From assembly GCF_002837275.1 (NCBI RefSeq), contig NZ_NXIF01000016.1, forward strand, positions 1 to 39,044: a stretch of 39,044 bases of DNA, read 5' to 3'. The position numbers and the translations under genes were made by a program. Source of the DNA: Malaciobacter halophilus. GTDB lineage: Bacteria; Campylobacterota; Campylobacteria; Campylobacterales; Arcobacteraceae. This document shows positions 1 through 13,626 of the stretch, in pieces; position 1 is the stretch's first letter; each line of letters starts with the position of its first letter. The notes below the pieces were generated by a model. The model was given only the letters and a program-made list of their open reading frames with translations, ran no database searches and was not told the DNA's origin.

Positions 1-433
1 TTCTATGCAAAGAATTAATGCAACAAACTATTTTCTATTCTCAAAAGAGTCTTTAAAAAAATTGTATATAAACTTTGGAAGAATTTTTAGCTTAAAATAT
101 AAAAATAAAGTTGTTACTGCAATATTTATTATTGAAGACTCTAAAAATGTATACTATTTTCTTGGTGGAACATTAAAAGAGTTTTTACCCTTTGGTTTTA
201 ATTCTCTTCTTTTTAAATTAGTCTGTGATTATTACAAAGGGCATAAAAATCTTTTTTTTCTTGGTGGAGGGAAAGATGGACTTTATAAATTTAAAGAAGA
301 GTTTTCTAAGGATAAAAAAACATTTTACATAGGGAATAAAGTATTTGATAAAAATTTATATGATAAACTAACAAAAAGAACAAAAAGAACTAATAATCAA
401 TTCTTCCCAAAATACAGAGAAAAAACAATATAA
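1..433 (+). CDS. FemAB/GNAT-like acyltransferase, C-terminal part (cut by window edge)
   Basis: The first in-frame ATG is at base 5, but the frame is open to the left edge and no ribosome site can be seen, so this is most likely the C-terminal 140 or so residues of a longer protein. The sequence has the look of the FemAB/BioF2-like (Acetyltransf_6) branch of the GNAT fold: a strand reading YYFLGGTLKEF, then a helix, then FFLGGGKDGLYKFKEEF, a pattern typical of the second GNAT half of these proteins. Members transfer an acyl or aminoacyl group to sugars, lipids or peptidoglycan precursors in the cytoplasm. It ends 8 bases before a radical SAM gene, so it probably belongs to the same operon and could acylate an amino sugar made there. 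The family call rests on overall pattern only; the substrate is unknown. Confidence 0.55.
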   Translation, partial: SMQRINATNYFLFSKESLKKLYINFGRIFSLKYKNKVVTAIFIIEDSKNVYYFLGGTLKEFLPFGFNSLLFKLVCDYYKGHKNLFFLGGGKDGLYKFKEEFSKDKKTFYIGNKVFDKNLYDKLTKRTKRTNNQFFPKYREKTI

Positions 434-441
434 GGTAATTA

Positions 442-1488
442 ATGAGCTTTTTAGAATTTGATAAAATATTATACCATCCAGAGAATATTTTAGCAATAAA
501 AAATCAAACAAAAATTTTTCCCGTTCATGCAACAATAAGTTTAGGTAACTTTTGTAATCATAAATGTTTATGGTGTACAGCCTATGAGTATCAACTTGAT
601 AAAGCAAATTTACTAGATTTAGATAAAATTCTTACCTTTTTAAAAAAAGCAAAAGATAGAGGCTTAAAAGCAGTAACATATGTAGGGAATGGAGAACCAA
701 CAGCATATCCAAAGTTCAAAGAACTAATTACAGAAATTTCAAAATTAGGCATAGAGCAAGGAATGTTTACAAATGGTTACTTAATAAATAGATTTGAAGA
801 TGAGATTCTTAAATATTTTACTTGGATAAGAGTAAGTTTAGATGCAGGTACTACGGAAGTACACAATCATATGCATGATGTAAATAACCATTTTGAAAAA
901 ATCATTAAAAATACGAAAGAGTTAATAAAAAAAAGAGAAAACATCTCTCCTACTGTAGGAATACAATTTGCTACGCATCATGAAAATATTAAAGACTTAT
1001 ATGAAAGTGCAAGAATATCAAAAGAGATAAAAGCTGATTATTTTTCTATTAAGCCTGTTTTTAATAGAGGAAGTGTTGGAGAAAGAATAGAGAAAAACAA
1101 TATTACACATAATGACATTTCTCCTATTGCCAAAAGAATCAAAAAAGATCTTGAAAATGAAAGCTTTAAAGTTTTTTATAGAGAACATCAAGTTTTATCT
1201 CATGAACAAGAAAAAACTATTCTTAAATATAATAAATGTGTTGCAGGTTTTTTTAATATTAATATTTATGAAGATGATAGAATTATTTACTGTGGTCCAC
1301 ATAGAATAAGTGTAGGAAAAATCACAGATAATTTAGAAAAAATAGAATCAAATATACTTAAACTATCTAATAATCTTGATTTATCAAAATGTCCAGCAGG
1401 ATGTAGATATCATTCTCTTAATAATTTAGTAGAAACCATTTTAAATCCTTCAAGTGTTACTAAAGAACAACATATAAACTTTATTTAA
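442..1488 (+). CDS. Radical SAM enzyme with one auxiliary Fe-S cluster (first of three)
   Basis: The radical SAM cluster motif is Cys38, Cys42, Cys45 (CNHKCLWC), followed by a GNGEPT motif at residues 82-87 that matches the SAM-binding GGEP element. Four further cysteines near the C-terminus (266, 284, 317, 321) form a short SPASM/twitch-like motif likely to bind one auxiliary 4Fe-4S cluster. The protein is 348 residues and ends in QHINFI; two other radical SAM proteins in this operon share the same C-terminal pattern. The ATG at 442 has a TAAGG site 7 bases upstream. Enzymes of this architecture generate a 5'-deoxyadenosyl radical to oxidise, epimerise, rearrange or crosslink sugars, alcohols or peptides. 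No peptide precursor is visible, and sugar genes surround it, so a sugar or polyol substrate is inferred. The exact reaction cannot be told from sequence. Confidence 0.85.
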   Translation: MSFLEFDKILYHPENILAIKNQTKIFPVHATISLGNFCNHKCLWCTAYEYQLDKANLLDLDKILTFLKKAKDRGLKAVTYVGNGEPTAYPKFKELITEISKLGIEQGMFTNGYLINRFEDEILKYFTWIRVSLDAGTTEVHNHMHDVNNHFEKIIKNTKELIKKRENISPTVGIQFATHHENIKDLYESARISKEIKADYFSIKPVFNRGSVGERIEKNNITHNDISPIAKRIKKDLENESFKVFYREHQVLSHEQEKTILKYNKCVAGFFNINIYEDDRIIYCGPHRISVGKITDNLEKIESNILKLSNNLDLSKCPAGCRYHSLNNLVETILNPSSVTKEQHINFI

Positions 1489-1498
1489 GAAGAAAAAA

Positions 1499-2416
1499 AT
1501 GATAGAAAAAATGAATAATCTACTAAGTAAAGAAAATAGTAATTTAGTATCTTTACACGAAAATAATAATTATCCAATATATTTTATAATAGCTCAACCA
1601 AGAGGTGCATCAACACTTTTTCAACAACTAATTACTAGTAATTTACATATAGGATATATTAGTAATTTTCTTGCAAAATTTTACCAAGCGCCAGCATTTG
1701 GAATAGAATTAGAAAAAGATATTATAAATAAAGACTATAAAAGTAATTATATCTCATCATATGGAAATACTAAAGGCATAAATGAACCACATGAATGGGG
1801 ATGGTTTTGGAAAGAACAATTAAATCTAAAAGATAATGAACACTATTGTAAAAAACAAAACTTTGATAATTTAAAAACAAATTTGAATTTTATAGTTAAT
1901 ACAAAAAAACTTCCTTTAATTATTGATAATGTTTATGCTATGGCAAATATTTTAAAGTTTAAGGACAACTTTAAAAATATAAGAATAATTAATCTTACTA
2001 GAGACTTATATTTCATTTGTAACTCAATAATTAATGCTCGTATTAGTAGATATGATAATATAAACCATTTTTATGGGCATATTCCAAACAATATATCAGT
2101 AATACAGAAAATAAAAAATCCTATTGAACAAATTGTTTTTCAAGTTAAATCTATACAAGATGAAATTGATTTGATTACTACAGAGTTCAAAAATGCTCAA
2201 TTAACAATTGATTATGAAGAGATATATAATAACTCTTTTGAGGTTGTTCAAAAGTTTAAAGACTTTGTTAAAAATTCAGACTCTATTGAACTAAAAGAGA
2301 AAGAAAAACATTTACCAAAGTTAAATTATAGAAACAGCTCTAACTTAATTAATAATAAATACAAAGATGAACTAGACTACTTTTATAAAAAATATTTTGG
2401 AAAAAGAAATGATTAA
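1499..2416 (+). CDS. PAPS-dependent sulfotransferase family protein
   Basis: Two PAPS-binding elements are visible. QPRGASTL at residues 33-40 matches the 5'-phosphosulfate loop, although sulfotransferases usually carry a basic residue where Gly36/Ala37 lie. NLTRDLYFICNSIINAR at 165-181 matches the 3'-phosphate element, with Arg168 and Ser176 as the expected contacts. There is no signal peptide or membrane segment, so the enzyme acts in the cytoplasm on a small molecule, nucleotide sugar or lipid-linked intermediate. APS kinase and ATP sulfurylase lie just downstream and can supply PAPS, and no PAPS reductase gene is present; both facts support the call. Length (305 residues) is normal for the family. 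The ATG follows the radical SAM stop by 10 bases and has only a weak purine-rich site. The acceptor is unknown. Confidence 0.75.
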   Translation: MIEKMNNLLSKENSNLVSLHENNNYPIYFIIAQPRGASTLFQQLITSNLHIGYISNFLAKFYQAPAFGIELEKDIINKDYKSNYISSYGNTKGINEPHEWGWFWKEQLNLKDNEHYCKKQNFDNLKTNLNFIVNTKKLPLIIDNVYAMANILKFKDNFKNIRIINLTRDLYFICNSIINARISRYDNINHFYGHIPNNISVIQKIKNPIEQIVFQVKSIQDEIDLITTEFKNAQLTIDYEEIYNNSFEVVQKFKDFVKNSDSIELKEKEKHLPKLNYRNSSNLINNKYKDELDYFYKKYFGKRND

Positions 2417-3503
2417 ATATATTGATTTGGGTATATCTTCAAAGGAGTATGAAGAAGAAATCTCTCCTTTAATTAAAGATATTTTTTTAACTGGACAATT
2501 TATTAGTGACTCATATGTAAAAGAGTTTGAAGACAAGTTTAAAAATTACTGTAATACAAAATATGCAGTAGCATTAAATTCAGGTACAGATGCATTAATA
2601 TTTGCACTAATGAGCTTAGGAATAGGACAAGATGATGAAGTAATCACAGTATCAAATAGTTTTATTGCAACAGCAAATGCAATCTCTTACTTAAAAGCAA
2701 AACCAATCTTTGCAGATATTAATGATAATTTATTAATTGATTATAAGAAAATTGAAGAACTTATTACACCTAAAACAAAAGCTATACTTCCTGTTCATTT
2801 AATGGGTGCAGTTTGTGATATGGATGAAATTAACAAAATTGCAAAAAAACATAAGCTTTTTGTAATTGAAGATGCAGCTCAAAGTATTGGCTCAACATAT
2901 AAAAAGATGAAAACTGGTTCTTTGTCAGATATAGCTTGTTTCTCTTTACACCCATTAAAAAATCTATCTGGTATTACAGATGGAGGAATTGTAACAACAA
3001 ATAATAAACAACTTGCATCTTATATTAAAAAGATAAGGAACCATGGATTAAAAAATAGAGACTTTCAAGAATTTATAGGAAGAGTATCTAGATTAAATAG
3101 TATAAATGCTGCTATTTTAAACCATAGGTTTGATAAATTAGAAAATATCATAAAAAATAGAATTGAACGTGCAAAATTATATAATGATTTACTTAGTAAT
3201 GTTCAAGAAATTAAAACTATTAAAATGAAAAGCTATATTAAACACACTTACCATACTTATATAATAAAAGCTGAAAAAAGAGAAAAACTACAAGAATATT
3301 TACAAAACAAAGGAATTGAAACAAAGATACATTATCCTATTTCAATACATAATCAAAAACCTTTTTCTCATATAAATAATCAACACCTTATTAATACAAA
3401 AAAATTTGAAAAAAATATATTAACACTACCAATTGCAAATATTACTTTTGATGAAATAAGATATGTTTGTAAATGTATAAATGAGTTTTATAAAGGATTA
3501 TAG
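2409..3503 (+). CDS. DegT/DnrJ/EryC1/StrS-family PLP aminotransferase
   Basis: This is a type I fold PLP enzyme of the sugar aminotransferase family. Visible marks are the N-terminal LNSGTDALIFAL segment that binds the PLP phosphate, the VIEDAAQSIGS segment with the Asp that holds the pyridine nitrogen, and FSLHPLKNLSGITDGG with the PLP lysine in HPLK. Length (about 364 residues) is normal. Such enzymes convert a keto nucleotide sugar to an amino sugar using Glu or Gln. A TTG at 2397 would add four residues, but the ATG at 2409, with a GGA-rich site 8 bases upstream, fits the family N-terminus (IKYIDLG) better. The start overlaps the sulfotransferase stop by 8 bases, suggesting translational coupling. 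Which keto sugar it uses is not clear. Confidence 0.88.
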   Translation: MIKYIDLGISSKEYEEEISPLIKDIFLTGQFISDSYVKEFEDKFKNYCNTKYAVALNSGTDALIFALMSLGIGQDDEVITVSNSFIATANAISYLKAKPIFADINDNLLIDYKKIEELITPKTKAILPVHLMGAVCDMDEINKIAKKHKLFVIEDAAQSIGSTYKKMKTGSLSDIACFSLHPLKNLSGITDGGIVTTNNKQLASYIKKIRNHGLKNRDFQEFIGRVSRLNSINAAILNHRFDKLENIIKNRIERAKLYNDLLSNVQEIKTIKMKSYIKHTYHTYIIKAEKREKLQEYLQNKGIETKIHYPISIHNQKPFSHINNQHLINTKKFEKNILTLPIANITFDEIRYVCKCINEFYKGL

Positions 3504-3994
3504 TGGTTATATGGTTATTAGGAATAAGTGGTTCAGGTAAAAGTACTTTAGGAAAAGAGTTAAAAAATTATTTTGATAATAATAATATAAATAGCTATAT
3601 AATTGATGGAGATATTATTAGAAACTTTTATGAAAATGATTTAGGATATACAAAAGAAGATAGAGAAGCAAATATTAAAAGAATTTTACTAAGTGCTTAT
3701 ATTTTAGAACAAAATAATATTATCCCAATTGTATGTAATATTTCACCTTTTGAACAATTAAGGGATTTTGCTAGAAGAAAGTTTGATAACTATTTTGAAA
3801 TATATTTAAAAAGGGATATTAATAATATAAAAAATAAAAAAACAGTTTACAAAGATAAAAATGTTGTAGGTGTAGATATTAAGTTTGAAGAGCCAAAAAA
3901 TAGTAATCTTATAATTGATACAAATAAGTTGACTAAAGAAGAGAGTCTTAATCATATACTAAAATATTTAAAGTTAAAGCAATGCTTGAACTAG
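3503..3994 (+). CDS. cysC: Adenylylsulfate (APS) kinase
   Basis: It phosphorylates APS at the 3' position with ATP to give PAPS, the sulfuryl donor for sulfotransferases. The Walker A loop GISGSGKST is at residues 7-15. The next conserved block, DGDIIRNFYENDLGYTKEDR followed by EANIKR, matches the APS-kinase substrate site almost position for position. The usual FTGID stretch near the C-terminus is changed to VVGVD. At 163 residues it is slightly short for a stand-alone enzyme. It starts with GTG, whose first base is the last base of the DegT stop codon, so it is probably coupled to that gene. With sat two genes downstream it forms a two-step PAPS module. No cysH or cysIJ-like gene is in the window, which argues for sulfation rather than sulfate assimilation. 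Confidence 0.9.
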   Translation: MVIWLLGISGSGKSTLGKELKNYFDNNNINSYIIDGDIIRNFYENDLGYTKEDREANIKRILLSAYILEQNNIIPIVCNISPFEQLRDFARRKFDNYFEIYLKRDINNIKNKKTVYKDKNVVGVDIKFEEPKNSNLIIDTNKLTKEESLNHILKYLKLKQCLN

Positions 3995-4698
3995 ATATAT
4001 TATTTGTGATTGTATTCACTTCTATTATTCAATCTTTATTTGGAGTTGGTGTCTTACTATTTGGTACTCCAATGATGTTACTTTTAAATTATGATTTTAT
4101 TGAATCACTATTAATACTACTTCCTGTTTCTGCTACAATAAATTTAATGCAAGTATTAAAAGATTCAGAATATATAAACAAAAAAATATATAAATCAATT
4201 CTTATATATACTATTCCTTTTATAGTAATAACACTTTTTCTAATTGAAAAAAGCTCTATAAATTTAAACATAATTATTGGTTTATTTTTAATACTATTAG
4301 CTATAAAAGAGAATATATCTTGGATTAAAAATTTTATGAATAGCTTTTTATCTTACAATAGGCTGTATTATATAACCATGGGTATAATTCATGGTTTAAC
4401 TAACTTAGGTGGTTCTTTATTATCAGCAAAAATCTTTTATGAAAAAGATTCTAAAAATGAGAAAAGAGTAACAATAGCAATATCTTATCTTACATTTGCA
4501 TTATTTCAAATTGGAACAATTTTTTTAACAAGTAGTTACGAAAAATTTAGTTACTATTATATATATTACGCTATTATTGGTTTTTTTATATATTTTATTG
4601 TAAATAAACTATTATATAAAAGATTAAATGAAATTAAATATCATAATTTATTTAAAATACTATTATTAGTTTCAGGTATTTTATTAATCTTAAAATAA
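3982..4698 (+). CDS. TauE/SafE-family membrane permease
   Basis: A hydrophobic protein of 238 residues with about seven or eight membrane spans. It has the TauE/SafE pattern: an N-terminal span ending in QSLFGVGVLLFGTPMMLLL and a matching second-half motif HGLTNLGGSLLSAKIF, the two Gly-rich repeats of the family. Members move sulfur-containing anions such as sulfite, sulfoacetate or sulfate across the inner membrane, though many are uncharacterised. The gene overlaps cysC by 13 bases and sits between cysC and sat, so it is likely to import sulfate for PAPS synthesis or to export a sulfur anion produced by the pathway. Direction and substrate are inference from position only. Confidence 0.8.
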   Translation: MLELDILFVIVFTSIIQSLFGVGVLLFGTPMMLLLNYDFIESLLILLPVSATINLMQVLKDSEYINKKIYKSILIYTIPFIVITLFLIEKSSINLNIIIGLFLILLAIKENISWIKNFMNSFLSYNRLYYITMGIIHGLTNLGGSLLSAKIFYEKDSKNEKRVTIAISYLTFALFQIGTIFLTSSYEKFSYYYIYYAIIGFFIYFIVNKLLYKRLNEIKYHNLFKILLLVSGILLILK

Positions 4699-4710
4699 AA
4701 TGGAGTTTTA

Positions 4711-5763
4711 ATGACATATGAAGTTAATGAAGAAACACTTCAAGATATAATTAATATAGAAACAAAACTTTTTTATCCATTAACTGGTTTTATGGATAGC
4801 AAAGATTATAATAGCGTTATTAATGAAATGCAACTTTCTACAAAAGAAGTATGGACTATACCTATAACACTAGATGTTAATAAAGAAACTTTTACTAATG
4901 CAATAAACAAAGAAGTTTTAACACTTACTTTTAAAAACAAACCTATTGCAACTTTATTTATTGAAGACCTATTTAAAATAAAAGAGCAAGATATTAAAAA
5001 AATTTTCCAAACTGATGATATAAACCACCCAGGAGTAAAAAAAGAAAAAAGCAGATTTCCTTTTAGAATTGGTGGAAAAATAGAAGTTATTGATAAAGAA
5101 ATTTTAAAAAACTCACTAATGCCTAAAGATACAAAAAAACTTTTTAAACAAAAAGGTTGGAATACAATAGTTGGTTTTCAAACTAGAAATGTTATTCACA
5201 AAGCTCATGAATATTTACAAAGAGTTGGTTTAGAGTTTTGTGATGCATTATTTATAAATCCATTAGTTGGATGGAAAAAAAGTGGAGATTTTAGTGAACA
5301 AGCCGTAGAAAAAGGCTATAAAAAAATGATTGAAATATATTATGAAAATCTTAATGTACACTTTCAAACATTAAAAACACAAATGAGATATGCAGGTCCC
5401 AAAGAAGCAATCTTTCATGCTATAATTCGAAGAAACTTAGGATGTACTCACTTTATAATAGGAAGAGATCATGCTGGTGTGGGAAATTATTATGGAAAAT
5501 ATGAAGCACACTCTTTAGCAAGAAAAATTCTTAAAACAAACTCTTTAGGAATTGAGTTACTACTACTAAAAGAACCTTACTATTGTAACATCTGCAAACA
5601 AATGGTAAGTGAAAATTGTTGTGCACATAAAGATATAATTAGAATTAGTGGTACAAAAATAAGAAAAAAATTTTTAAATAATGAAACTCCTTCTTCAATA
5701 TTTATGAGAGAAGAAGTATCAAAAGAGATTTTAAATCTTAAAGAGGAGATGTTTATAAAATGA
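4711..5763 (+). CDS. sat: Sulfate adenylyltransferase (ATP sulfurylase, homo-oligomeric type)
   Basis: It makes APS and pyrophosphate from ATP and sulfate, the first step of sulfate activation. The active-site motifs are all visible: QTRNVIHKAHE at 157-167 (canonical QTRNPxHxAHE), GRDHAGVGNYY at 251-261, and RISGTKIR at 311-318. A Cys292/Cys295/Cys303-304/His306 group matches the zinc site of bacterial single-chain ATP sulfurylases. Length is 350 residues, slightly shorter than many family members (about 380-390), with the shortening mainly at the N-terminus. It is the Sat type and not the CysDN type. TGGAG precedes the ATG. The stop overlaps the start of the pyruvate-kinase-like gene (ATGA). 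In this operon its product feeds cysC and then the sulfotransferase. Confidence 0.95.
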   Translation: MTYEVNEETLQDIINIETKLFYPLTGFMDSKDYNSVINEMQLSTKEVWTIPITLDVNKETFTNAINKEVLTLTFKNKPIATLFIEDLFKIKEQDIKKIFQTDDINHPGVKKEKSRFPFRIGGKIEVIDKEILKNSLMPKDTKKLFKQKGWNTIVGFQTRNVIHKAHEYLQRVGLEFCDALFINPLVGWKKSGDFSEQAVEKGYKKMIEIYYENLNVHFQTLKTQMRYAGPKEAIFHAIIRRNLGCTHFIIGRDHAGVGNYYGKYEAHSLARKILKTNSLGIELLLLKEPYYCNICKQMVSENCCAHKDIIRISGTKIRKKFLNNETPSSIFMREEVSKEILNLKEEMFIK

Positions 5764-6719
5764 AAAAAATAATTGCAACAGTAGGTCCATCACTTCTATA
5801 TAAAACACCTATAAATAAAATACACAATCAAAGTTATATATATAGAATAAATGGTGCTCATGGAACAATTCAAGAGATAGAATCACATATTAAAGAAATT
5901 AGAAAACAACAAAGTGATGCTAAGATATTAATGGATCTACCAGGTAATAAAATTAGAACAACAAATGTTGAGGATTATATAAAAATTGAAGAAGGAGAAA
6001 ACTTTACTCTTAACTTTAATCAATTAAACTATTCTACTTTTTTTAAACATATAAAAGTAGGTGATATTATATGGGCAAATGATTCAATCTTTAAGTTTAA
6101 ATTATTGAAAAAAGATTTAGAAAAAGCTCAATTTACATTTCTATCGTACTCAACAGGAAAGCTTCAAAACAATAAAGGTATGCATGTAAGAGGTATTCAT
6201 GAAGAGATTCCTTTTTTATTTGAAAAAGATAAGAAACTTATTAATCTTGCAAATAAATACCATTTAGACTATATAGGATTATCTTTTGTAAGAAACAAAA
6301 AAGATATACAACTTGCAAAAGAACTAATTGAAAACTCAACTATTATCTCAAAAGTAGAAACATTAAGTGCTGTAAATAACTTAGATGAAATATTAGAAGA
6401 AGTTGAGCACATATTAATTGATAGAGGTGATTTATCAACAGAAGTAGGTTTAAATAATATCCCAACTTATCAAAAATTTATTATTGATAAAGCAACTTTT
6501 TATAATAAAAAAGTATTTTTAGCAACACAATTTCTTAAAACTATGGAGATAAACCCTATTCCAACTATTGCAGAAACAATTGATTTATATAATAGTTTAA
6601 AAAGTGGTATTTATGGACTACAATTATCAGAAGAAACAGCAATAGGAAACTATCCAGAGCTATGTCTTGATGTAATTAACAAACAAATTAAAAATATTAA
6701 AGAAGAGTATATAAGGTAA
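5760..6719 (+). CDS. Truncated pyruvate-kinase-like protein (A and B domains only)
   Basis: The sequence follows pyruvate kinase from end to end of the catalytic barrel: KIIATVGPS at the start, RING at 29-32 (the RxNFSHG loop), DLPGNKIRT at 59-67, SKVET at 197-201 with the catalytic Lys198 and metal ligand Glu200, RGD at 222-224 with metal ligand Asp224, ATQFLKTM at 255-262 and LSEETAIGNYP at 289-299. It stops at 319 residues; normal enzymes have about 470, so the C-terminal regulatory domain is missing. Monovalent-cation ligands are changed (Ser to Ala33, Thr to Leu60) and Lys64 replaces the usual Glu, as in K+-independent enzymes. The catalytic residues remain, so it may still transfer phosphate between PEP or a similar compound and a nucleotide. 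It overlaps sat by 4 bases. It is unlikely to be the housekeeping enzyme. Confidence 0.8.
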   Translation: MKKIIATVGPSLLYKTPINKIHNQSYIYRINGAHGTIQEIESHIKEIRKQQSDAKILMDLPGNKIRTTNVEDYIKIEEGENFTLNFNQLNYSTFFKHIKVGDIIWANDSIFKFKLLKKDLEKAQFTFLSYSTGKLQNNKGMHVRGIHEEIPFLFEKDKKLINLANKYHLDYIGLSFVRNKKDIQLAKELIENSTIISKVETLSAVNNLDEILEEVEHILIDRGDLSTEVGLNNIPTYQKFIIDKATFYNKKVFLATQFLKTMEINPIPTIAETIDLYNSLKSGIYGLQLSEETAIGNYPELCLDVINKQIKNIKEEYIR

Positions 6720-6723
6720 AGTA

Positions 6724-7815
6724 ATGGCAGATACATATTCAATAGATAGTCATAAATTAAATTTTCATCCTCTAAGAGTTGCTAGTTGGCTAAAAGCAGA
6801 TAATAATTGGGAAAAACAAAAAAAAATTTATCCTTTATATGTTGAAATTTCTCCAGTAGGAGCATGTAATCATAGATGTACTTTTTGTGCAGTGGATTAT
6901 ATTGGTTATAAAAATATAAGATGGGAAACACCGTTACTAAAAGAAAGAATCTCTGAGATGTCTAAGCTTGGTATTAAAAGTATAATGTTTGCAGGAGAAG
7001 GAGAACCCTTACTTCATAAAGACTTAGATTCAATTATACAGCATTGCAATAATGTAAATATTGATTCATCAATTACAACAAATTTTGTTTTATTTGATAA
7101 ACAAGATGCTCATATGATTTTAAAAAACGCTTCTTGGATAAAAATAAGTATAAATGCAGGAAGTGCAAAAACATATTCAAAAGTTCACAGAACAAAAGAG
7201 AAAGATTTTGAAAAAGTACTTAATAATATGAAAAATGCTGTTCAAATAAGAGACAAAAACAATTACAAATGTACTTTAGGTGCACAAATGTTACTTCTTC
7301 CTGAAAATAAAGACGAAGTATTTGAGTTTGCAAAAACTGTAAAAGAGATAGGTTTGGACTATTTAGTAATAAAACCTTACTCTCAACATTTGTTTAGTGA
7401 AACTAAAATTTATAGTGATATAAATTATGAACCAATGTTAGATTTAGAAAAAAAGCTAGAAAAATTAAATAATGAAAATTTTAGTATAGTATTTAGAAGT
7501 AATACTATGAAAAAACTAAATAGCAGCCATGACTATAAAAAATGTTACTCAACACCATACTTTTGGGCTCATATGATGGCAGATGGGGATGTTTATGGTT
7601 GTAGTGCATACTTACAACAAGAGCATTTTTGTTATGGTAACGCTCAAGAAAATAGCTTCCAAGATATTTGGGAAGGTGAAAAAAGAAGAAAAAGTATAGA
7701 GTTTGTAAGAAATGAGCTTGATATAAAAGATTGTAGAGTAAATTGCAGAATGGATGAAGTAAATAGATATTTATGGCGATTAAAAAATCCAAATGCACAT
7801 GATAATTTTATTTAA
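6724..7815 (+). CDS. Radical SAM enzyme with SPASM-like C-terminus (second of three)
   Basis: Cys48, Cys52 and Cys55 form the radical SAM motif CNHRCTFC, and GEGEP at 91-95 is the SAM-binding element. The C-terminal cysteines 274, 293, 337 and 341 give the spacing C-x18-C-...-C-x3-C expected for one auxiliary cluster, with an extra Cys303. The protein ends in AHDNFI. It is 363 residues, and AAGG lies upstream of the ATG. Radical SAM proteins with this tail oxidise or modify alcohols, sugars or peptides; the neighbours point to a sugar pathway. It is a clear relative of the two other radical SAM proteins in the operon, but divergent enough to do a different step. Confidence 0.87.
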   Translation: MADTYSIDSHKLNFHPLRVASWLKADNNWEKQKKIYPLYVEISPVGACNHRCTFCAVDYIGYKNIRWETPLLKERISEMSKLGIKSIMFAGEGEPLLHKDLDSIIQHCNNVNIDSSITTNFVLFDKQDAHMILKNASWIKISINAGSAKTYSKVHRTKEKDFEKVLNNMKNAVQIRDKNNYKCTLGAQMLLLPENKDEVFEFAKTVKEIGLDYLVIKPYSQHLFSETKIYSDINYEPMLDLEKKLEKLNNENFSIVFRSNTMKKLNSSHDYKKCYSTPYFWAHMMADGDVYGCSAYLQQEHFCYGNAQENSFQDIWEGEKRRKSIEFVRNELDIKDCRVNCRMDEVNRYLWRLKNPNAHDNFI

Positions 7816-7827
7816 AAGGTACATAAT

Positions 7828-8814
7828 ATGAAAGCAGTAGTTACAGGAGGAGCAGGTTTTATTGGCTCTCATATGGTTGATTTATTAATAGAGCAAAACT
7901 TTGAGGTTATAGTTATAGATAATCTGTCAAATGGACGATTAGAAAATATTGAACACCATAAAAATAAAATCAAATTTGTTCAAGCAGATATTGGTGATTA
8001 TGAAAATAAACTTGAAAAATATTTTGAAGATGTTGAGTATGTTTTTCACTTTGCTGCTTTAGCAGATATTGTTCCATCTATTAATGACCCTTTGAAATAT
8101 CATAAAGCAAATGTTGATGGAACTATAAATATTTTACAAGCTGCTAAAACCTCAACAAAACTTAAAAAGTTTGTTTATGCAGCTTCTAGTTCATGTTATG
8201 GAATCCCCAAAACATATCCAACAAGTGAAGATACTAAAATAGCACCTGAATATCCATATGCCCATACAAAAAGAGTAGCAGAAGAGTATGTTCTTCATTG
8301 GGGGCAAGTATATAATATGCCTGTAGTTTCAATGAGATTTTTCAATGTTTATGGTCCAAGACATAGAACAAGTGGAACTTATGGAGCAGTATTTGGAGTA
8401 TTTTTAGCTCAACTTTTAAATAATAAACCTCTAACTATTGTAGGAGATGGTAAGCAAACTAGAGATTTTACTTTTGTAACTGATGTCGTAGATGCTTGCT
8501 TAAGTGCGGCAAAATCAGAATACACAAATGAGATTTTTAATGTAGGTAGTGATAACACTTATAGTGTAAATTATTTAGTTGAACTATTAGGTGGAGAAAA
8601 AACTTATATACCAAAACGTCCAGGAGAACCTGATTGTACATATGCAGATATTAGTAAAATCAAACGCCTTCTAAACTGGTCTCCAAAAGTTACTTTTGAA
8701 GAAGGGGTAAAAATAATGCTTGAAAATATTGAGCAATGGGCAAAAGCTCCTGTTTGGGATAAAGATTCTATTAATGAAGCAACAAAAGACTGGTTTGAGT
8801 ATTTAGGTAAATAA
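7828..8814 (+). CDS. NAD-dependent nucleotide-sugar epimerase/dehydratase (extended SDR)
   Basis: An extended short-chain dehydrogenase/reductase of 328 residues. The NAD-binding loop is GGAGFIGS (7-14), the catalytic triad elements are the Ser run at 120-122, Tyr144 and Lys148 (YAHTK), and the nucleotide-sugar part includes MRFFNVYGPRH and the VVGDGKQTRDFTFV-like stretch usual in UDP-hexose 4-epimerases and related enzymes. The closest general match is the WbpP/GalE-like or dTDP-glucose dehydratase-like branch. It probably interconverts the C4 configuration of a UDP-hexose or makes a 4-keto intermediate. The ATG has AAAGG upstream, 12 bases after the radical SAM gene. Exact substrate is not determined. 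Confidence 0.9.
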   Translation: MKAVVTGGAGFIGSHMVDLLIEQNFEVIVIDNLSNGRLENIEHHKNKIKFVQADIGDYENKLEKYFEDVEYVFHFAALADIVPSINDPLKYHKANVDGTINILQAAKTSTKLKKFVYAASSSCYGIPKTYPTSEDTKIAPEYPYAHTKRVAEEYVLHWGQVYNMPVVSMRFFNVYGPRHRTSGTYGAVFGVFLAQLLNNKPLTIVGDGKQTRDFTFVTDVVDACLSAAKSEYTNEIFNVGSDNTYSVNYLVELLGGEKTYIPKRPGEPDCTYADISKIKRLLNWSPKVTFEEGVKIMLENIEQWAKAPVWDKDSINEATKDWFEYLGK

Positions 8815-8815
8815 T

Positions 8816-9607
8816 ATGTTAGATATTGAAGATATTAGATATAAAACTATTAAGTTATCTTGTGAATCAAAAGCCGGGCACTTAGCACCGTCTTTATCTT
8901 GTCTTGAAATATTAACAACTCTATTTAATGATTATCTTAATTACAATACAAATAATGCTAAAGATAATTCAAGAGATAGATTAGTTTTTAGCAAAGGACA
9001 TGGTGCATATGCTTACTATGTTATTTTAAATGAATTAGGTTTTCTCCCAAGCCATGAATTAAAAAATTTTTATAATGGTTCTTCAATAAAGGGTTGCCTT
9101 ACTCAAAATTTAGATTATATGATTGAGGCTTCAACTGGTTCTTTAGGTCATGGACTTCCAATAGCAGTTGGTATGGCACAAGCTTTTAAAATGCAAAATA
9201 TGACAAATAAAGTAGTCTGTATTGTAGGTGATGGAGAGATGCAAGAAGGAAGTAACTTTGAGGCTTTAAATATCGCTTCTAAATATAAACTTGATAACTT
9301 ATTAGTAATAATTGATGCAAATACTCTTCAAGCAATGAGTAAGGTTAGTGATGTAGGATTGAGCAATCCTCAACTAAGTAATGTTCTTAAATCATACCCT
9401 TGTTCATTTTCAAAAATCAATGGTCATAGTATAAAAGAGCTAAAAGAGTCTTTTGATAATTTTTTTAATAAATCAAATGATAACTTCTCAGTCCTTTTCT
9501 GTGATACAGTAAAAGGTAAAGGCTTAGATTTCATGGAAAACTCTATAAAGCATCATTTTAGATGCCCAACTGAAGATGGTTATATTCTAAAGGAAAATGA
9601 TGAGTAA
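8816..9607 (+). CDS. Transketolase-like protein, N-terminal (diphosphate-binding) subunit
   Basis: It contains the thiamine diphosphate motif GDGEMQEG at 138-145 ending near Asn170, with His22 (GH), KGHG at 60-63 and GSLGHGL at 108-114, all typical of the N-terminal half of transketolase. At 263 residues it is a single PP domain; the pyrimidine-binding half is encoded by the next gene, which overlaps it by 11 bases. Split transketolases of this kind occur in secondary metabolism and surface-sugar clusters, where they move a two-carbon or acyl unit onto an unusual acceptor. In this operon it may build a longer or branched sugar. The start is 1 base after the epimerase stop, with TAGG upstream. 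Confidence 0.9.
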   Translation: MLDIEDIRYKTIKLSCESKAGHLAPSLSCLEILTTLFNDYLNYNTNNAKDNSRDRLVFSKGHGAYAYYVILNELGFLPSHELKNFYNGSSIKGCLTQNLDYMIEASTGSLGHGLPIAVGMAQAFKMQNMTNKVVCIVGDGEMQEGSNFEALNIASKYKLDNLLVIIDANTLQAMSKVSDVGLSNPQLSNVLKSYPCSFSKINGHSIKELKESFDNFFNKSNDNFSVLFCDTVKGKGLDFMENSIKHHFRCPTEDGYILKENDE

Positions 9608-10088
9608 TCTAGTTTCAAAACAAGAAGTAATGAAAGAGATATATAAATATTTTCAAAAAGATGAAAAGATGACTCTTCTTGCAGGCGATATGGGTTTTGC
9701 TGTTTTAGACGAGTATTTTAATAACCATTCACATCGAGCTTTTAATATAGGTATTTGTGAGCAAGCTACAATAAGTATGAGCGCAGGTATGTTTTTAGCT
9801 GGACTTAAACCAATAGTTTATTCACAAGTTCCTTTTTTAGTTATGAGAGCATATGAGCAAATAAGATATGATTTAAATGAGCATAATATGAATGTAAAAC
9901 TAATAGGAGTAGGAGCAAATAACTACTTTGAGAAATTAGGAAGAAGTCACTGTATGGATGAAGATGATATAAAGATGATGAAAATTTTCAAAAATTTTCT
10001 AATATTATCACCAACACAAAATAGTTTAGTAACAGATATAAAAAAAATGTTTGACTATAAAGGACCTGTTTATGTTAGATGCAAATAA
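9597..10088 (+). CDS. Transketolase-like protein, pyrimidine-binding subunit lacking the C-terminal domain
   Basis: This is the partner of the preceding gene. It carries NIGICEQ at 50-56, where Glu55 is the catalytic glutamate that activates thiamine diphosphate, and the following GMFLAGLKPIVYSQVPFL stretch typical of the Pyr domain. It ends after GPVYVRCK at 163 residues. The usual partner subunit is about 300 residues, so the third (Transketolase_C) domain is absent. No frame carries that domain on downstream, so this is a true short form and not an obvious frameshift. ATG ATG at 9597/9600 both have AAGGA upstream. The last 17 bases overlap the next small gene. Confidence 0.85.
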   Translation: MMSNLVSKQEVMKEIYKYFQKDEKMTLLAGDMGFAVLDEYFNNHSHRAFNIGICEQATISMSAGMFLAGLKPIVYSQVPFLVMRAYEQIRYDLNEHNMNVKLIGVGANNYFEKLGRSHCMDEDDIKMMKIFKNFLILSPTQNSLVTDIKKMFDYKGPVYVRCK

Positions 10089-10365
10089 ATACTCAAGGTA
10101 TGAACCTGAAAGTTTAGTAAAATGGAAAAAATTATCTTCACAAGAACAATTAGAAAAAGTGAAATTTTTAAGTAAAAAATTTAATAAAGAATTAGAAGTA
10201 ATAAAAGTAAATAATCAAGCAATAGAAGTAAATCTAATTATGGCCAAGAATAAAGTTTATGATTATTTAGTATCATATGAGTCATATATAAGAGAAAAAT
10301 TAGGAAATTTTCCAGTAATAGTACTTTTGAAAGATAGAGCAGATGAAAACAAAAAAAGAAAATAA
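10072..10365 (+). CDS. Uncharacterised 97-residue protein in the transketolase/radical SAM operon
   Basis: I do not recognise this family. The frame could begin at TTG 10051, but ATG 10072 has a good AAAGGA seven bases upstream and is preferred. The protein is hydrophilic and Lys-rich, with no signal peptide, membrane span or cysteine. The second half looks like a compact alpha/beta unit: a strand (EVNLIMAKN), a helix (KVYDYLVSYESYIREKL) and a strand (FPVIVLLKDR), ending in a basic tail. The gene overlaps the transketolase Pyr subunit by 17 bases and the third radical SAM gene by 23 bases, so it is translated together with both and is probably a partner or accessory of one of them. Confidence 0.6.
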   Translation: MLDANKYSRYEPESLVKWKKLSSQEQLEKVKFLSKKFNKELEVIKVNNQAIEVNLIMAKNKVYDYLVSYESYIREKLGNFPVIVLLKDRADENKKRK

Positions 10366-11461
10366 ATATATACTAGATGCCACTAAAATATATTGGCATC
10401 AAGAAAGAATTAAAAAATGGGAGAAAGGTGAAAGAATCGCTCCAATTACAATAGATATGGCATTAACTAGAGCATGTAATTATGGTTGCCATTTTTGTTA
10501 TGCTAGACTTCAAGAAAATGATAGATTTGATATAAAAAAAGAACATATTGATAACTTTTTAGAAGACTGCGCTCAAATGGGAGTTAAAGCAATCTCTTTA
10601 GTAAGTGATGGAGAGAGCTCTTTATCTCCTATTTATGAACATACTATAATCAAAGGTTCGCAACTTGGTATATCTATGGCAGCAGCAACTCATGGATATA
10701 ATACAAGATATGAAGCATTACAAAGAATTCTTCCTCACTTAACATATTTAAGAGTTAATATTTCTGCTGGTGAGCCTAAAAGATATGCTGAAATAATGGG
10801 AGTAAAAGAGAGTCATTTTCATCAAGTTATTCAAAACATAAAAGATATGGTTGAAATAAAAAAGAAAAATAATCTTGATGTAACTATTGGTATGCAAATG
10901 GTATTAATGCCAGAAGATGCAGACCAAGTTATTCCTCTAGCAAAGATAGGAAAAGAGATTCGCCCTGATTATTTAGTTGTAAAACATACAAGTGATAGTG
11001 AAGATGGAAAACTAGGAGTTGATTACTCAAAGTACTCACAGCTTACACATATTTTAGAAGAGGCAGAGTCTTATAGTGATGATGAATATCAAGTTAGTGT
11101 AAAATGGTCTAAGATTAATGCTGAAGGAAAAAGAAGCTATCAAAGATGTTATGGACCACCATTTCAAATACAAATCTCAGGTTCAGGTCTAGTTGCTCCT
11201 TGTGGCATGTTATTTAATGAAAGATATAGTAGATTTCATATAGGAAATATAACTCAACAAAGATTTAAAGATATTGTAAATAGTGATAGATACTGGGAGG
11301 TTATGAATCACTTATCTTCTCCAAATTTTGATGCACAAACTATGTGTGGTTCTTTATGTTTACAACATAAAGTAAATGAATTTTTAGATGGTTATAAAAA
11401 AGGTGAGATAAAACTTGAAAAACCAACTGGAACACCACCTAATCACTTAAATTTTATATAG
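10343..11461 (+). CDS. Radical SAM enzyme with SPASM-like C-terminus (third of three)
   Basis: The radical SAM motif is Cys45, Cys49, Cys52 (CNYGCHFC). The usual GGEP element is changed to SDGESS at 88-93. The C-terminal cysteines 269, 287, 335 and 339 repeat the C-x17-C-...-C-x3-C pattern of the other two enzymes, and the protein ends in PPNHLNFI. It is 372 residues. The ATG lies inside the end of the preceding small gene, so translation is likely coupled. As with its relatives, a radical step on a sugar or polyol precursor is inferred; the reaction is not known. Confidence 0.87.
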   Translation: MKTKKENKYILDATKIYWHQERIKKWEKGERIAPITIDMALTRACNYGCHFCYARLQENDRFDIKKEHIDNFLEDCAQMGVKAISLVSDGESSLSPIYEHTIIKGSQLGISMAAATHGYNTRYEALQRILPHLTYLRVNISAGEPKRYAEIMGVKESHFHQVIQNIKDMVEIKKKNNLDVTIGMQMVLMPEDADQVIPLAKIGKEIRPDYLVVKHTSDSEDGKLGVDYSKYSQLTHILEEAESYSDDEYQVSVKWSKINAEGKRSYQRCYGPPFQIQISGSGLVAPCGMLFNERYSRFHIGNITQQRFKDIVNSDRYWEVMNHLSSPNFDAQTMCGSLCLQHKVNEFLDGYKKGEIKLEKPTGTPPNHLNFI

Positions 11462-11469
11462 AGAATAAA

Positions 11470-12897
11470 ATGAAAAAAAGAAAAGCTTTTGTTTATGGAA
11501 ATTTTAATATTTTACATCCTGGACATCTAAGACTATTAAAGTTTGCAAAAGAGAGTTGTGAATATTTAATTGTTGGAGTAAATAGTGATAGCATTAATAA
11601 AGACTCTAACCTATTAGATGAAAATATAAGACTAGAGTCTATAAATGCTACAAGTTATGTAGATGAAGCTTTTTTACTAAAAGAGGATGTATTAGAATAT
11701 ATCAAAAGAGAAAAGCCAGATATTATAGTAAAAGGTAAAGAGCATGAGAAATTATCAAATCCTGAAGAAGAAGTTTTAAAATCTTACGGAGGTGAACTTC
11801 TTTTTACATCAGGAGAGATTGGTTTTTCTTCTTTAGATTTACTTCAAAAAGATTTTGAAGTAAATCCCTCATTTATAACACATGCCACTAGATATATTAA
11901 TAGGCATCAAATAGACTCTGAAAAATTAAAAGAGTATGTAAATAGTTTTTCTAATTTAAATGTATTAGTTATTGGAGATACAATCATAGATGAATATATT
12001 ACTTGTGATCCAATTGGCATGAGTCAAGAAGACCCGACAATTGTTATAACACCTATTTCAAATAAAAAATTTATAGGTGGTGCTGCAATTGTTGCAAGTC
12101 ACGCTAAAACATTAGGAGCAAAGGTATCATATATTTCAATCTTAGGTGATGATGAAAATTTTGAATTTACAAAAAATTATTTAAATGAGTTAGAAATTGA
12201 TACTTATATCTACAAAGATAGCACTAGACCTACAACTTTAAAACAAAGATTTAGAGCTCAAAATAAAACTTTATTAAGAGTTAATCATTTAAAGCAACAC
12301 AATATCTCAAAAGATTTAGAAGCAAAAATCATGGAAAAAATAAAGAATAATGGTAAAAATTATGATTTAATTATTTTTTCTGACTTCTCATATGGAGTTT
12401 TAACTAAATATTTAATAGAAAAAATATCCCAATTTGCCCATAATCATTCTATTTCAACAGTTGCAGATTCTCAAAGCTCTTCTCAAGTAGGAGATATTTC
12501 AAAATTTAAAAATATGGATATTGTTACGCCAACAGAAAGAGAAATAAGATTATCTTTAAATGATTTTGAGTCAGGTTTAGTAGTATTATCAAAAGAGTTA
12601 CATGAAAAATCAAAACCTAAATATGTATTTACTACTTTAGGAAGTGAAGGAATTATGATTTATAACTCAATAAAAGATGAGTTATTAACAGATAATATCC
12701 CTGCTTTAAACCAAAATGCAAAAGATGTAAGTGGAGCAGGAGATTCTTTAATTACGTGCTCTTCCATGGCAAAAACAGTTGGTGCTTCTGTTTGGGAAAG
12801 TGCATATCTTGGTTCTTTAGCTGCAGCTATTCAAGTAAGTCGAGTAGGAAATATTCCTATTAAAAAACAAGAAATCATTAAGGAGTTAAATTTTTAA
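11470..12897 (+). CDS. HldE-like bifunctional protein with reversed domains: nucleotidyltransferase then PfkB kinase
   Basis: Residues 1 to about 135 are a cytidylyltransferase-like domain (FVYGNFNILHPGHLRLL, with the HxGH nucleotide site at 16-19, and IIVKGKEHE). Residues about 160-475 are a PfkB/ribokinase-type sugar kinase (VLVIGDTIIDEY, GGAAIVASHAKTLGA, and GAGDS at 422-426, where Asp425 is the expected base). Both halves resemble the heptose enzyme HldE/RfaE, which phosphorylates heptose-7-phosphate at C1 and then makes ADP-heptose. In HldE the kinase comes first; here the order is opposite. No gmhA or gmhB is in the window, so the sugar may be heptose or another ketose-derived sugar, perhaps from the transketolase. 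It ends directly before the next gene. Confidence 0.85.
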   Translation: MKKRKAFVYGNFNILHPGHLRLLKFAKESCEYLIVGVNSDSINKDSNLLDENIRLESINATSYVDEAFLLKEDVLEYIKREKPDIIVKGKEHEKLSNPEEEVLKSYGGELLFTSGEIGFSSLDLLQKDFEVNPSFITHATRYINRHQIDSEKLKEYVNSFSNLNVLVIGDTIIDEYITCDPIGMSQEDPTIVITPISNKKFIGGAAIVASHAKTLGAKVSYISILGDDENFEFTKNYLNELEIDTYIYKDSTRPTTLKQRFRAQNKTLLRVNHLKQHNISKDLEAKIMEKIKNNGKNYDLIIFSDFSYGVLTKYLIEKISQFAHNHSISTVADSQSSSQVGDISKFKNMDIVTPTEREIRLSLNDFESGLVVLSKELHEKSKPKYVFTTLGSEGIMIYNSIKDELLTDNIPALNQNAKDVSGAGDSLITCSSMAKTVGASVWESAYLGSLAAAIQVSRVGNIPIKKQEIIKELNF

Positions 12898-13626
12898 ATG
12901 AAAAAAGCTTTACTTTTAGCAGCAGGTCTTGGAACAAGACTAAGACCTATTACAAATAAAATTCCAAAATGTCTAGTACCTTTAAATAATAAACCCTTAC
13001 TTCAATATTGGCTTGAGAATCTAACAAAAGCAGGAGTTGAAGAGTTTATAATAAATACTCACTACTTTAATAATAAAGTTGAAGAATTTATAGAAAATTC
13101 TGAATTTAAAAATAAAGTTACATTAGTTTATGAAAAAGAACTTTTAAATACAGCAGGAACAATTTTAGAAAATAAAATTTTTTTTGATAAAGATGAACCT
13201 TTTTTAGTTATACACGCAGATAACCTATCATTTTGCAACTTTAATGCATTTTTTGATACCCATGAAGAAAAAAAAACAAAATGTGATATAACAATGATGT
13301 TATTTGAAACTGATACACCACAATCTTGTGGAATTGTTGAACTTGATAAAAACGGCATTGTTCAAAAATTTTATGAAAAAGTCAAAAATCCTCCTTCAAA
13401 TTTAGCAAATGCAGCTGTATATATCTGTAACTATTCTATATTTAAATTTTTAGAAATTAATAAAAAAGACAACTTTGATTTCTCACTTGATGTCATTCCT
13501 TATTTTACAGGAAAAATTAATACTTTTTTAAACTCTACTTATCATAGAGATATTGGAACATTACAAAGCTATGAAATAGCACAAAAAGATATAAAAAATC
13601 TTACAAAATGCAATAAAAATATGTAA
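12898..13626 (+). CDS. Sugar-1-phosphate nucleotidyltransferase (HddC/mannose-1-P guanylyltransferase-like)
   Basis: The signature for NTP binding, AGLGTRLRPITNKIPK, is at residues 9-24, followed by a Pro-Leu-x-Asn-Lys-Pro-Leu segment typical of NTP-transferase family members. IHADNL carries the metal-binding Asp. The 242-residue length fits D-glycero-D-manno-heptose 1-phosphate guanylyltransferase (HddC) and related short enzymes. It would activate a sugar-1-phosphate, probably one made by the kinase half of the preceding gene. The start directly follows that gene's stop, with AAGGAG inside its 3' end. This is the last gene of the cluster. The nucleotide used (GTP, CTP or other) is not settled. 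Confidence 0.85.
   Translation: MKKALLLAAGLGTRLRPITNKIPKCLVPLNNKPLLQYWLENLTKAGVEEFIINTHYFNNKVEEFIENSEFKNKVTLVYEKELLNTAGTILENKIFFDKDEPFLVIHADNLSFCNFNAFFDTHEEKKTKCDITMMLFETDTPQSCGIVELDKNGIVQKFYEKVKNPPSNLANAAVYICNYSIFKFLEINKKDNFDFSLDVIPYFTGKINTFLNSTYHRDIGTLQSYEIAQKDIKNLTKCNKNM

Follow-up and report, generated by a model that had tools for sequence, protein, structure and literature searches.

What does a bacterium make with an operon that joins the enzymes of sulfate activation to radical S-adenosylmethionine (SAM) enzymes, a split transketolase and the genes of sugar activation? The question is raised by a contig of Malaciobacter halophilus (NZ_NXIF01000016.1), analysed here over its entire 39,044 nucleotides ('the window'; contig C32 of a genome of 2.75 Mb in 111 contigs), in which 15 genes occupy positions 442-13626, all on the + strand, each junction being a gap of 0-12 bases or an overlap of 1-23 bases. 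Building on what could be read directly (gene content, synteny, the modularity of the cassettes, the island in which they sit and their conserved motifs), we consider it reasonably probable that the product of the operon is a heptose-derived, radical-modified sugar and that either this sugar or the glycan that carries it is sulfated, on flagellin. The genes named by the initial annotation of this DNA, and their one-strand layout with gaps of at most 12 bases, were all present; its family assignments were right, and its list lacked a 97-residue gene (X), the loss of the Transketolase_C domain, and gene A, a further member of the run that the contig border at base 1 truncates. recA starts 62 bases past the operon, no terminator-like site was found at the + strand junctions of the operon, and a promoter scan gave a signal no better than that of shuffled sequences and was hence left unused.

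In a genome of a different Arcobacteraceae genus (G051, locus L066), all of the operon genes but X recur at 50-80% identity, in the same order except that the TauE-type permease and CysC are swapped and one radical SAM gene is inserted; a chance neighbourhood was rejected on this whole-set synteny. Elsewhere the set comes in pieces. The series rSAM2, epimerase, the two transketolase halves (TKN and TKC), X in some cases, rSAM3, HldE and a nucleotidyltransferase (NT), hereafter the core, occurs free of sulfation genes in Arcobacter, Sulfuricurvum and Pseudoalteromonas and in slightly altered form in Sulfurimonas, often near GmhA, and the genes for 3'-phosphoadenosine 5'-phosphosulfate (PAPS) occur with no core nearby in four genomes (G032, G043, G523 and G729; loci L073, L106, L120 and L122/L123). 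Among 104 genomes of the family, rSAM3 was found in eight, the pyruvate kinase in four and both in two (hypergeometric probability of about 0.03, calculated by hand over lineages that are not independent). One contig of an uncultured Lachnospiraceae bacterium unites PAPS genes (pyruvate kinase, Sat, CysC), two sulfotransferase matches, both weak, and core genes (GmhA, GmhB, epimerase, HldE, rSAM2, split transketolase, rSAM3), all in the same orientation and in the neighbourhood of a flagellin gene. The expectation that the parts would be conserved together is thus borne out for the full set in G051, but since core and sulfation genes also occur as separate units, the operon is a combination of separable cassettes and not one fixed pathway.

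The sulfate-activating cassette is well preserved at the level of motifs. Sat, the sole Sat of its genome, has intact QTRNVIHKAHE and GRDHAGVG motifs in its translation and matches PF01747 and PUA_2 above cut-off, whilst CysC keeps GISGSGKST, DGDIIR, REANIKR and ISPF in alignment, has a lid loop shorter than that of canonical adenosine 5'-phosphosulfate (APS) kinases and finds its nearest solved relatives in archaeal APS kinases. The pyruvate kinase shares R29, N31, D59, K198, E200, D224 and T256 with the full-length paralogue encoded separately on contig C53 and ends after the barrel, the C-terminal regulatory domain being absent. CysC, Sat and the pyruvate kinase are adjacent in seven of seven readable loci from two phyla (the window, G051, G032, G043 and three Lachnospiraceae genomes; an eighth locus, in G131, is interrupted by a contig end and stands outside the count); a TauE-type or Na/H-exchanger-type transporter accompanies them in six of these, the TauE-type permease staying with them in L066, L073 and L106, and a CysQ-type phosphatase lies beside two. 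Within the Lachnospiraceae, 3 of 397 genomes carry the cassette-type pyruvate kinase. Its simplest role would be to regenerate ATP from the ADP released by CysC, and the cassette as a whole hints at a dedicated means of meeting the cost of making PAPS. A second sulfation locus of the same genome, with CysD/CysN-type, CysC and CysQ-type genes and two sulfotransferase-like genes, lies within a polysaccharide locus on another contig (C90:18000-37900, L067).

The sulfotransferase of the operon has no Pfam match below 0.01 when searched alone, and bears PRGAST, the 5'-phosphosulfate loop, and RDLYFICNS, the R-x7-S motif. Four of the five proteins aligned match Sulfotransfer_3 (best 1.8e-15), the window member itself being sub-threshold, and a profile comparison gave a weak match to the CurM sulfotransferase (5e-4). 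Together, rSAM1, the sulfotransferase and the DegT aminotransferase form a third block, which is rare. No further genome with rSAM1 was found in a sample of 397 from the phylum, a sample that does not list G051.

Turning to the sugar core, rSAM1, rSAM2 and rSAM3 have in common, when aligned, a CxxxCxxC motif, a set of four auxiliary cysteines and an HxN[FY]I tail at the C terminus, and the best NCBIfam matches of the radical SAM enzymes are maturases, all well under cut-off. The structural model of rSAM3 (predicted local distance difference test score 91.5) has DesII (Z 25.1), BlsE (Z 24.7) and SkfB (Z 23.9) as its closest folds, with identity to DesII and BlsE of only 12-14%. As DesII and BlsE, both sugar-nucleotide enzymes, rank first by fold, a sugar nucleotide is the favoured, not proved, substrate of rSAM3. 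A scan of a genome collection recovered 57 rSAM3 loci from many phyla, and neighbours were counted in the 49 of at least 11 kb: a thiamine diphosphate (ThDP) enzyme in 43, HldE in 42, X in 36, a J-type epimerase in 34, DegT in 30, GmhA in 29, and sulfation genes in one. GmhB lies beside the core in some loci; it was not found in those contigs of the M. halophilus genome that were read, which do hold a GmhA-type gene (contig C99). The HldE-like protein scores 217 bits with TIGR02198 and 65 bits with TIGR02199, both under the curated cut-offs, and contains both domains in reversed order, nucleotidyltransferase first; its best solved match is 4e84, HldA, to which the kinase domain is nearest.

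The ThDP enzymes of the 43 loci are of three exchangeable types: E1 in 23, split transketolase in 13, acetolactate-synthase type in six, and two types together in one. Their occurrence in the same place suggests a shared reaction class, perhaps, by analogy with YerE-type branching, the transfer of a two-carbon unit to a carbonyl. In the window the pair carries GDGEMQEG...DAN and GICEQ in translation, and TKC has Transket_pyr only, with no Transketolase_C domain; the next gene is X. A frameshift fusing TKC and X was rejected, as X opens with an ATG of its own at 10072 and its homologues are separate proteins. These have 96-104 residues or are longer proteins with an N-terminal domain that models as an IscU fold (Z 11.1 in a fold search), of which the window X retains the C-terminal domain alone; no match came from comparing the sequence of X with those of solved structures. 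The IscU-fold domain is missing from the Arcobacter copies and present in the longer homologue at L011:9256-9981. Two variants of the core may be recorded here. SAR11 (Pelagibacteraceae) sugar loci have an acetolactate-synthase-type ThDP enzyme adjoining rSAM3 (L047, L048 and L049), and L107 6051-10487 (G052) holds a core free of ThDP genes, with two AAA-ATPase-like genes at the junctions between rSAM2, epimerase, rSAM3 and HldE.

Judged from relatives and from a chain of contigs, the operon sits in a flagellin-glycosylation island of its own genome, probably at the end of it. Contigs C51, C99 and C11 overlap exactly, by 103 and 109 bp, and give the order flagellins, Maf, CBS/nucleotidyltransferase, NeuB, GmhA, CgeB, two glycosyltransferases, GDPD, rSAM5, methyltransferase and gene A, so that the glycosyltransferases sought to the left of base 1 were found, with Maf, on other contigs; given these, no capsule-type flippase need be invoked. 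Gene A is split: its N-terminal half closes C11, where it matches residues 1-158 of a 314-residue G051 protein, and its C-terminal half, 57% identical to residues 173-314, opens the window, about 14 residues being missing between the two. Species G082 of the same genus, which shares the recA-eno site, shows the arrangement on a single contig: flagellins, Maf, NeuB, GmhA, CgeB, glycosyltransferase, a slot of variable content, the core (61-95% identical to the window and at the same recA site) and recA. Its slot holds a different sulfation set, CysC with a Pfam-supported sulfotransferase of another kind, and, by eye only, two more genes, one sulfotransferase-like and one resembling a radical SAM gene of the B12 type. 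In G051 the set lies among at least six genes for flagellin and a pair of Maf type. The link to flagellin and Maf is therefore contiguous in G082 and G051, and in M. halophilus runs through contig overlaps and one inferred junction.

Other features of these islands were seen in passing. The flagellin genes of G051 stand in tandem (L075 13793-19899), and L075 3555-8519 encodes a Cj1415-1418-like kinase, PEP-synthase-like, glutamine amidotransferase-like and nucleotidyltransferase proteins and a methyltransferase, which suggests a methyl phosphoramidate modification inside the same island. B12-binding radical SAM genes occur at L116 18104-19426, in the decoration part of a Lachnospiraceae island, and, from a look at the sequence only, at L105 14511-16424 in G082.

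Table 1. Genes of the operon and the preceding partial gene, with positions in the window and supporting evidence.
Feature	Positions	Strand	Evidence
Gene A, C-terminal half	2..433	+	No Pfam match, weak GNAT-type hint; 8 bases before rSAM1
rSAM1, radical SAM enzyme	442..1488	+	PF04055 1.7e-21; 75% to G051 copy
Sulfotransferase, divergent, Sulfotransfer_3-like	1499..2416	+	Homologues and motifs; 64% to G051 copy
DegT/DnrJ aminotransferase	2397..3503	+	PF01041 3.1e-105
CysC-type APS kinase, shortened lid loop	3503..3994	+	PF01583 9.9e-29
TauE/SafE-type permease, proposed sulfate uptake	3982..4698	+	PF01925 1.5e-12
Sat, ATP sulfurylase	4711..5763	+	PF01747 7.5e-76; solved-structure match 8a8d 2.4e-88
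Barrel-only pyruvate kinase paralogue	5760..6719	+	PF00224 2.1e-58; 319 aa
rSAM2, radical SAM/SPASM-type enzyme	6724..7815	+	Radical_SAM match; opens sugar core in relatives
NAD-dependent nucleotide-sugar epimerase/dehydratase	7828..8814	+	70-89% to copies in Campylobacterota and Pseudoalteromonas cores
TKN, ThDP enzyme, transketolase N-terminal type	8816..9607	+	PF00456 4.9e-27
TKC, ThDP enzyme, pyrimidine-binding domain only	9597..10088	+	PF02779 1e-11; 163 aa
X, 97-aa partner protein	10072..10365	+	Translation, homologue alignment, model and fold matches
rSAM3, radical SAM/SPASM-type enzyme	10343..11461	+	Fold closest to DesII and BlsE
HldE-like, nucleotidyltransferase then heptose-7-phosphate-kinase-type PfkB domain	11470..12897	+	CTP_transf_like and PfkB
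NT, sugar-1-phosphate nucleotidyltransferase	12898..13626	+	PF00483 1.4e-41

How might these parts work together? The substrates, the order of steps, the sulfation target and the final product given here are those we infer from the genes. GmhA, encoded elsewhere in the island, and HldE would supply and activate a heptose; rSAM2 and rSAM3, with their HxNFI tails, would modify the sugar at an unactivated carbon; at the carbonyl so formed, a two-carbon unit would be added or moved by the ThDP enzyme; and the epimerase and nucleotidyltransferase would complete the sugar donor. In parallel, TauE would take up sulfate, Sat would make APS and CysC would make PAPS, with the truncated pyruvate kinase converting ADP to ATP at the expense of phosphoenolpyruvate and so pulling the unfavourable activation of sulfate forward. 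The sulfotransferase would then transfer sulfate to this sugar or to the glycan that bears it, rSAM1 and DegT may introduce further changes, and Maf with the other glycosyltransferases of the island would attach the product to flagellin. A bolder and doubtful version is that the core is a new, widely spread branched-heptose pathway, sulfated here through PAPS with its own ATP-regenerating pyruvate kinase and destined for flagellin: the radical SAM enzyme, with its HxNFI tail, would turn an unactivated carbon in a heptose donor into a carbonyl, to which the exchangeable ThDP enzyme, be it of transketolase, E1 or acetolactate-synthase type, would add a two-carbon branch.

The initial annotation had guessed at a sulfated, radical-modified amino or higher-carbon sugar for a surface glycan, and part of this fits. 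GmhA and GmhB beside the core elsewhere, the DesII/BlsE-like fold and the conservation in G051 speak for a higher-carbon sugar with a radical modification, the presence of Sat, CysC and the sulfotransferase speaks for sulfation, and the island for a surface glycan. The amendments are that the acceptor is probably flagellin and that the set is modular. Several points weigh against this interpretation: the full set was seen in two genomes only, the sulfation cassette and the core are mostly found apart, the sulfotransferase is divergent, GmhA and GmhB lie outside the window, the fold of rSAM3 is in near-tie with the peptide enzyme SkfB, and the window and C11 have no overlap, their join resting on gene A and G082.

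In a rather unlikely alternative that one must nonetheless consider, the heptose core serves flagellin, and the sulfation genes modify some other residue or surface molecule and merely fill a hypervariable slot. Most relatives do carry the core free of sulfation genes, the PAPS cassette stands apart from any core in the four genomes given above, and the content of the slot differs between two species of one genus; yet the whole set is syntenic in G051, a second sulfation set has entered the same slot in G082, and PAPS and core genes form a joint cluster in Lachnospiraceae. It is less probable still that the product is destined for capsule, lipopolysaccharide or exopolysaccharide. The PAPS-pyruvate kinase unit of G032 sits among capsule-type genes, including one for a Glyphos_transf protein, C90 of M. 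halophilus has its own CysDN/CysC/sulfotransferase polysaccharide locus, and the sulfation genes of Campylobacter jejuni HS:19 adjoin the capsule locus (PMC8743553), but the core has Maf, flagellin, NeuB and CgeB-type genes at its flanks in G051, G082, G022 and L009, flagellin lies near the Lachnospiraceae core, and the contigs of M. halophilus chain to flagellins.

Very little probability attaches to the two remaining alternatives. Were the radical SAM enzymes maturases of peptides (akin to ribosomally synthesised and post-translationally modified peptides) or of cofactors, with no role in sugar chemistry, their far sub-threshold NCBIfam matches, the rank of SkfB among the closest folds and X as a conserved partner protein would be accounted for; the rSAM3 loci, however, sit within HldE/GmhA/epimerase/ThDP sugar sets, and DesII and BlsE top the fold ranking. 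Equally remote is a CysC-like kinase that phosphorylates some other nucleotide, as C. jejuni Cj1415 does in methyl phosphoramidate synthesis, and makes no PAPS. The shortened lid loop and the nearby Cj1415-1418-like set of G051 are consistent with such a kinase, but CysC stands beside Sat in all seven pyruvate kinase loci, sometimes with a CysQ-type phosphatase and sulfotransferase, its nearest solved relatives are APS kinases, and the Cj1415-like protein of the same G051 island is a different, full-lid protein.

If the proposed sulfated, heptose-derived product is correct, there are Campylobacterota and Lachnospiraceae whose flagella bear higher sugars that are both sulfated and radical-modified, something of which we found no report in the literature searched. 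The rSAM3-ThDP-HldE core is present in many phyla, including in Pelagibacter, and one solved product would explain sugar loci of abundant marine bacteria.

Known flagellin islands of Campylobacter and Helicobacter are built on nonulosonic acids (pseudaminic or legionaminic acid). The present island resembles them in Maf, NeuB and nucleotidyltransferases beside flagellins (on the contigs of M. halophilus and in G082) or in Maf and flagellins (in G051), whereas the operon adds the heptose, radical SAM and ThDP core and the sulfation cassette. With the ADP- and GDP-heptose pathways (GmhA, HldE/HddA, GmhB, HddC) it has in common the GmhA, GmhB and HldE-type genes beside the core, but it differs in the reversed domain order of HldE, a separate nucleotidyltransferase, and the added radical SAM and ThDP enzymes. 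As in DesI/DesII, there is a DegT partner, and the fold of rSAM3 is nearest to DesII and BlsE; the likeness is by fold only, rSAM3 being 12-14% identical and belonging to the family with the HxNFI tail. ThDP enzymes of the YerE and AviB types attach two-carbon branches to keto-sugars. The operon and the other rSAM3 loci likewise have an acetolactate-synthase-, E1- or transketolase-type ThDP enzyme inside a sugar cluster, here paired, unlike YerE and AviB, with rSAM3 and a putative heptose pathway. The claim that no described pathway has this gene set holds in the literature searched, where the nearest proposal is that for C. jejuni HS:19 (PMC8743553). Cluster VI of that strain comprises cysD, cysN, an anion permease, cysC, a sulfotransferase, a glycosyltransferase and a radical SAM protein called a sulfatase maturase, with sulfation proposed from annotation only (PMC8743553). 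Unlike the operon, it uses CysDN instead of Sat, adjoins the capsule locus, and has neither a pyruvate kinase nor a heptose/ThDP core among its listed genes (PMC8743553). What the two share is PAPS supply, a sulfate permease, a sulfotransferase and a radical SAM gene, brought together in a surface-glycan region of a campylobacterotal genome.

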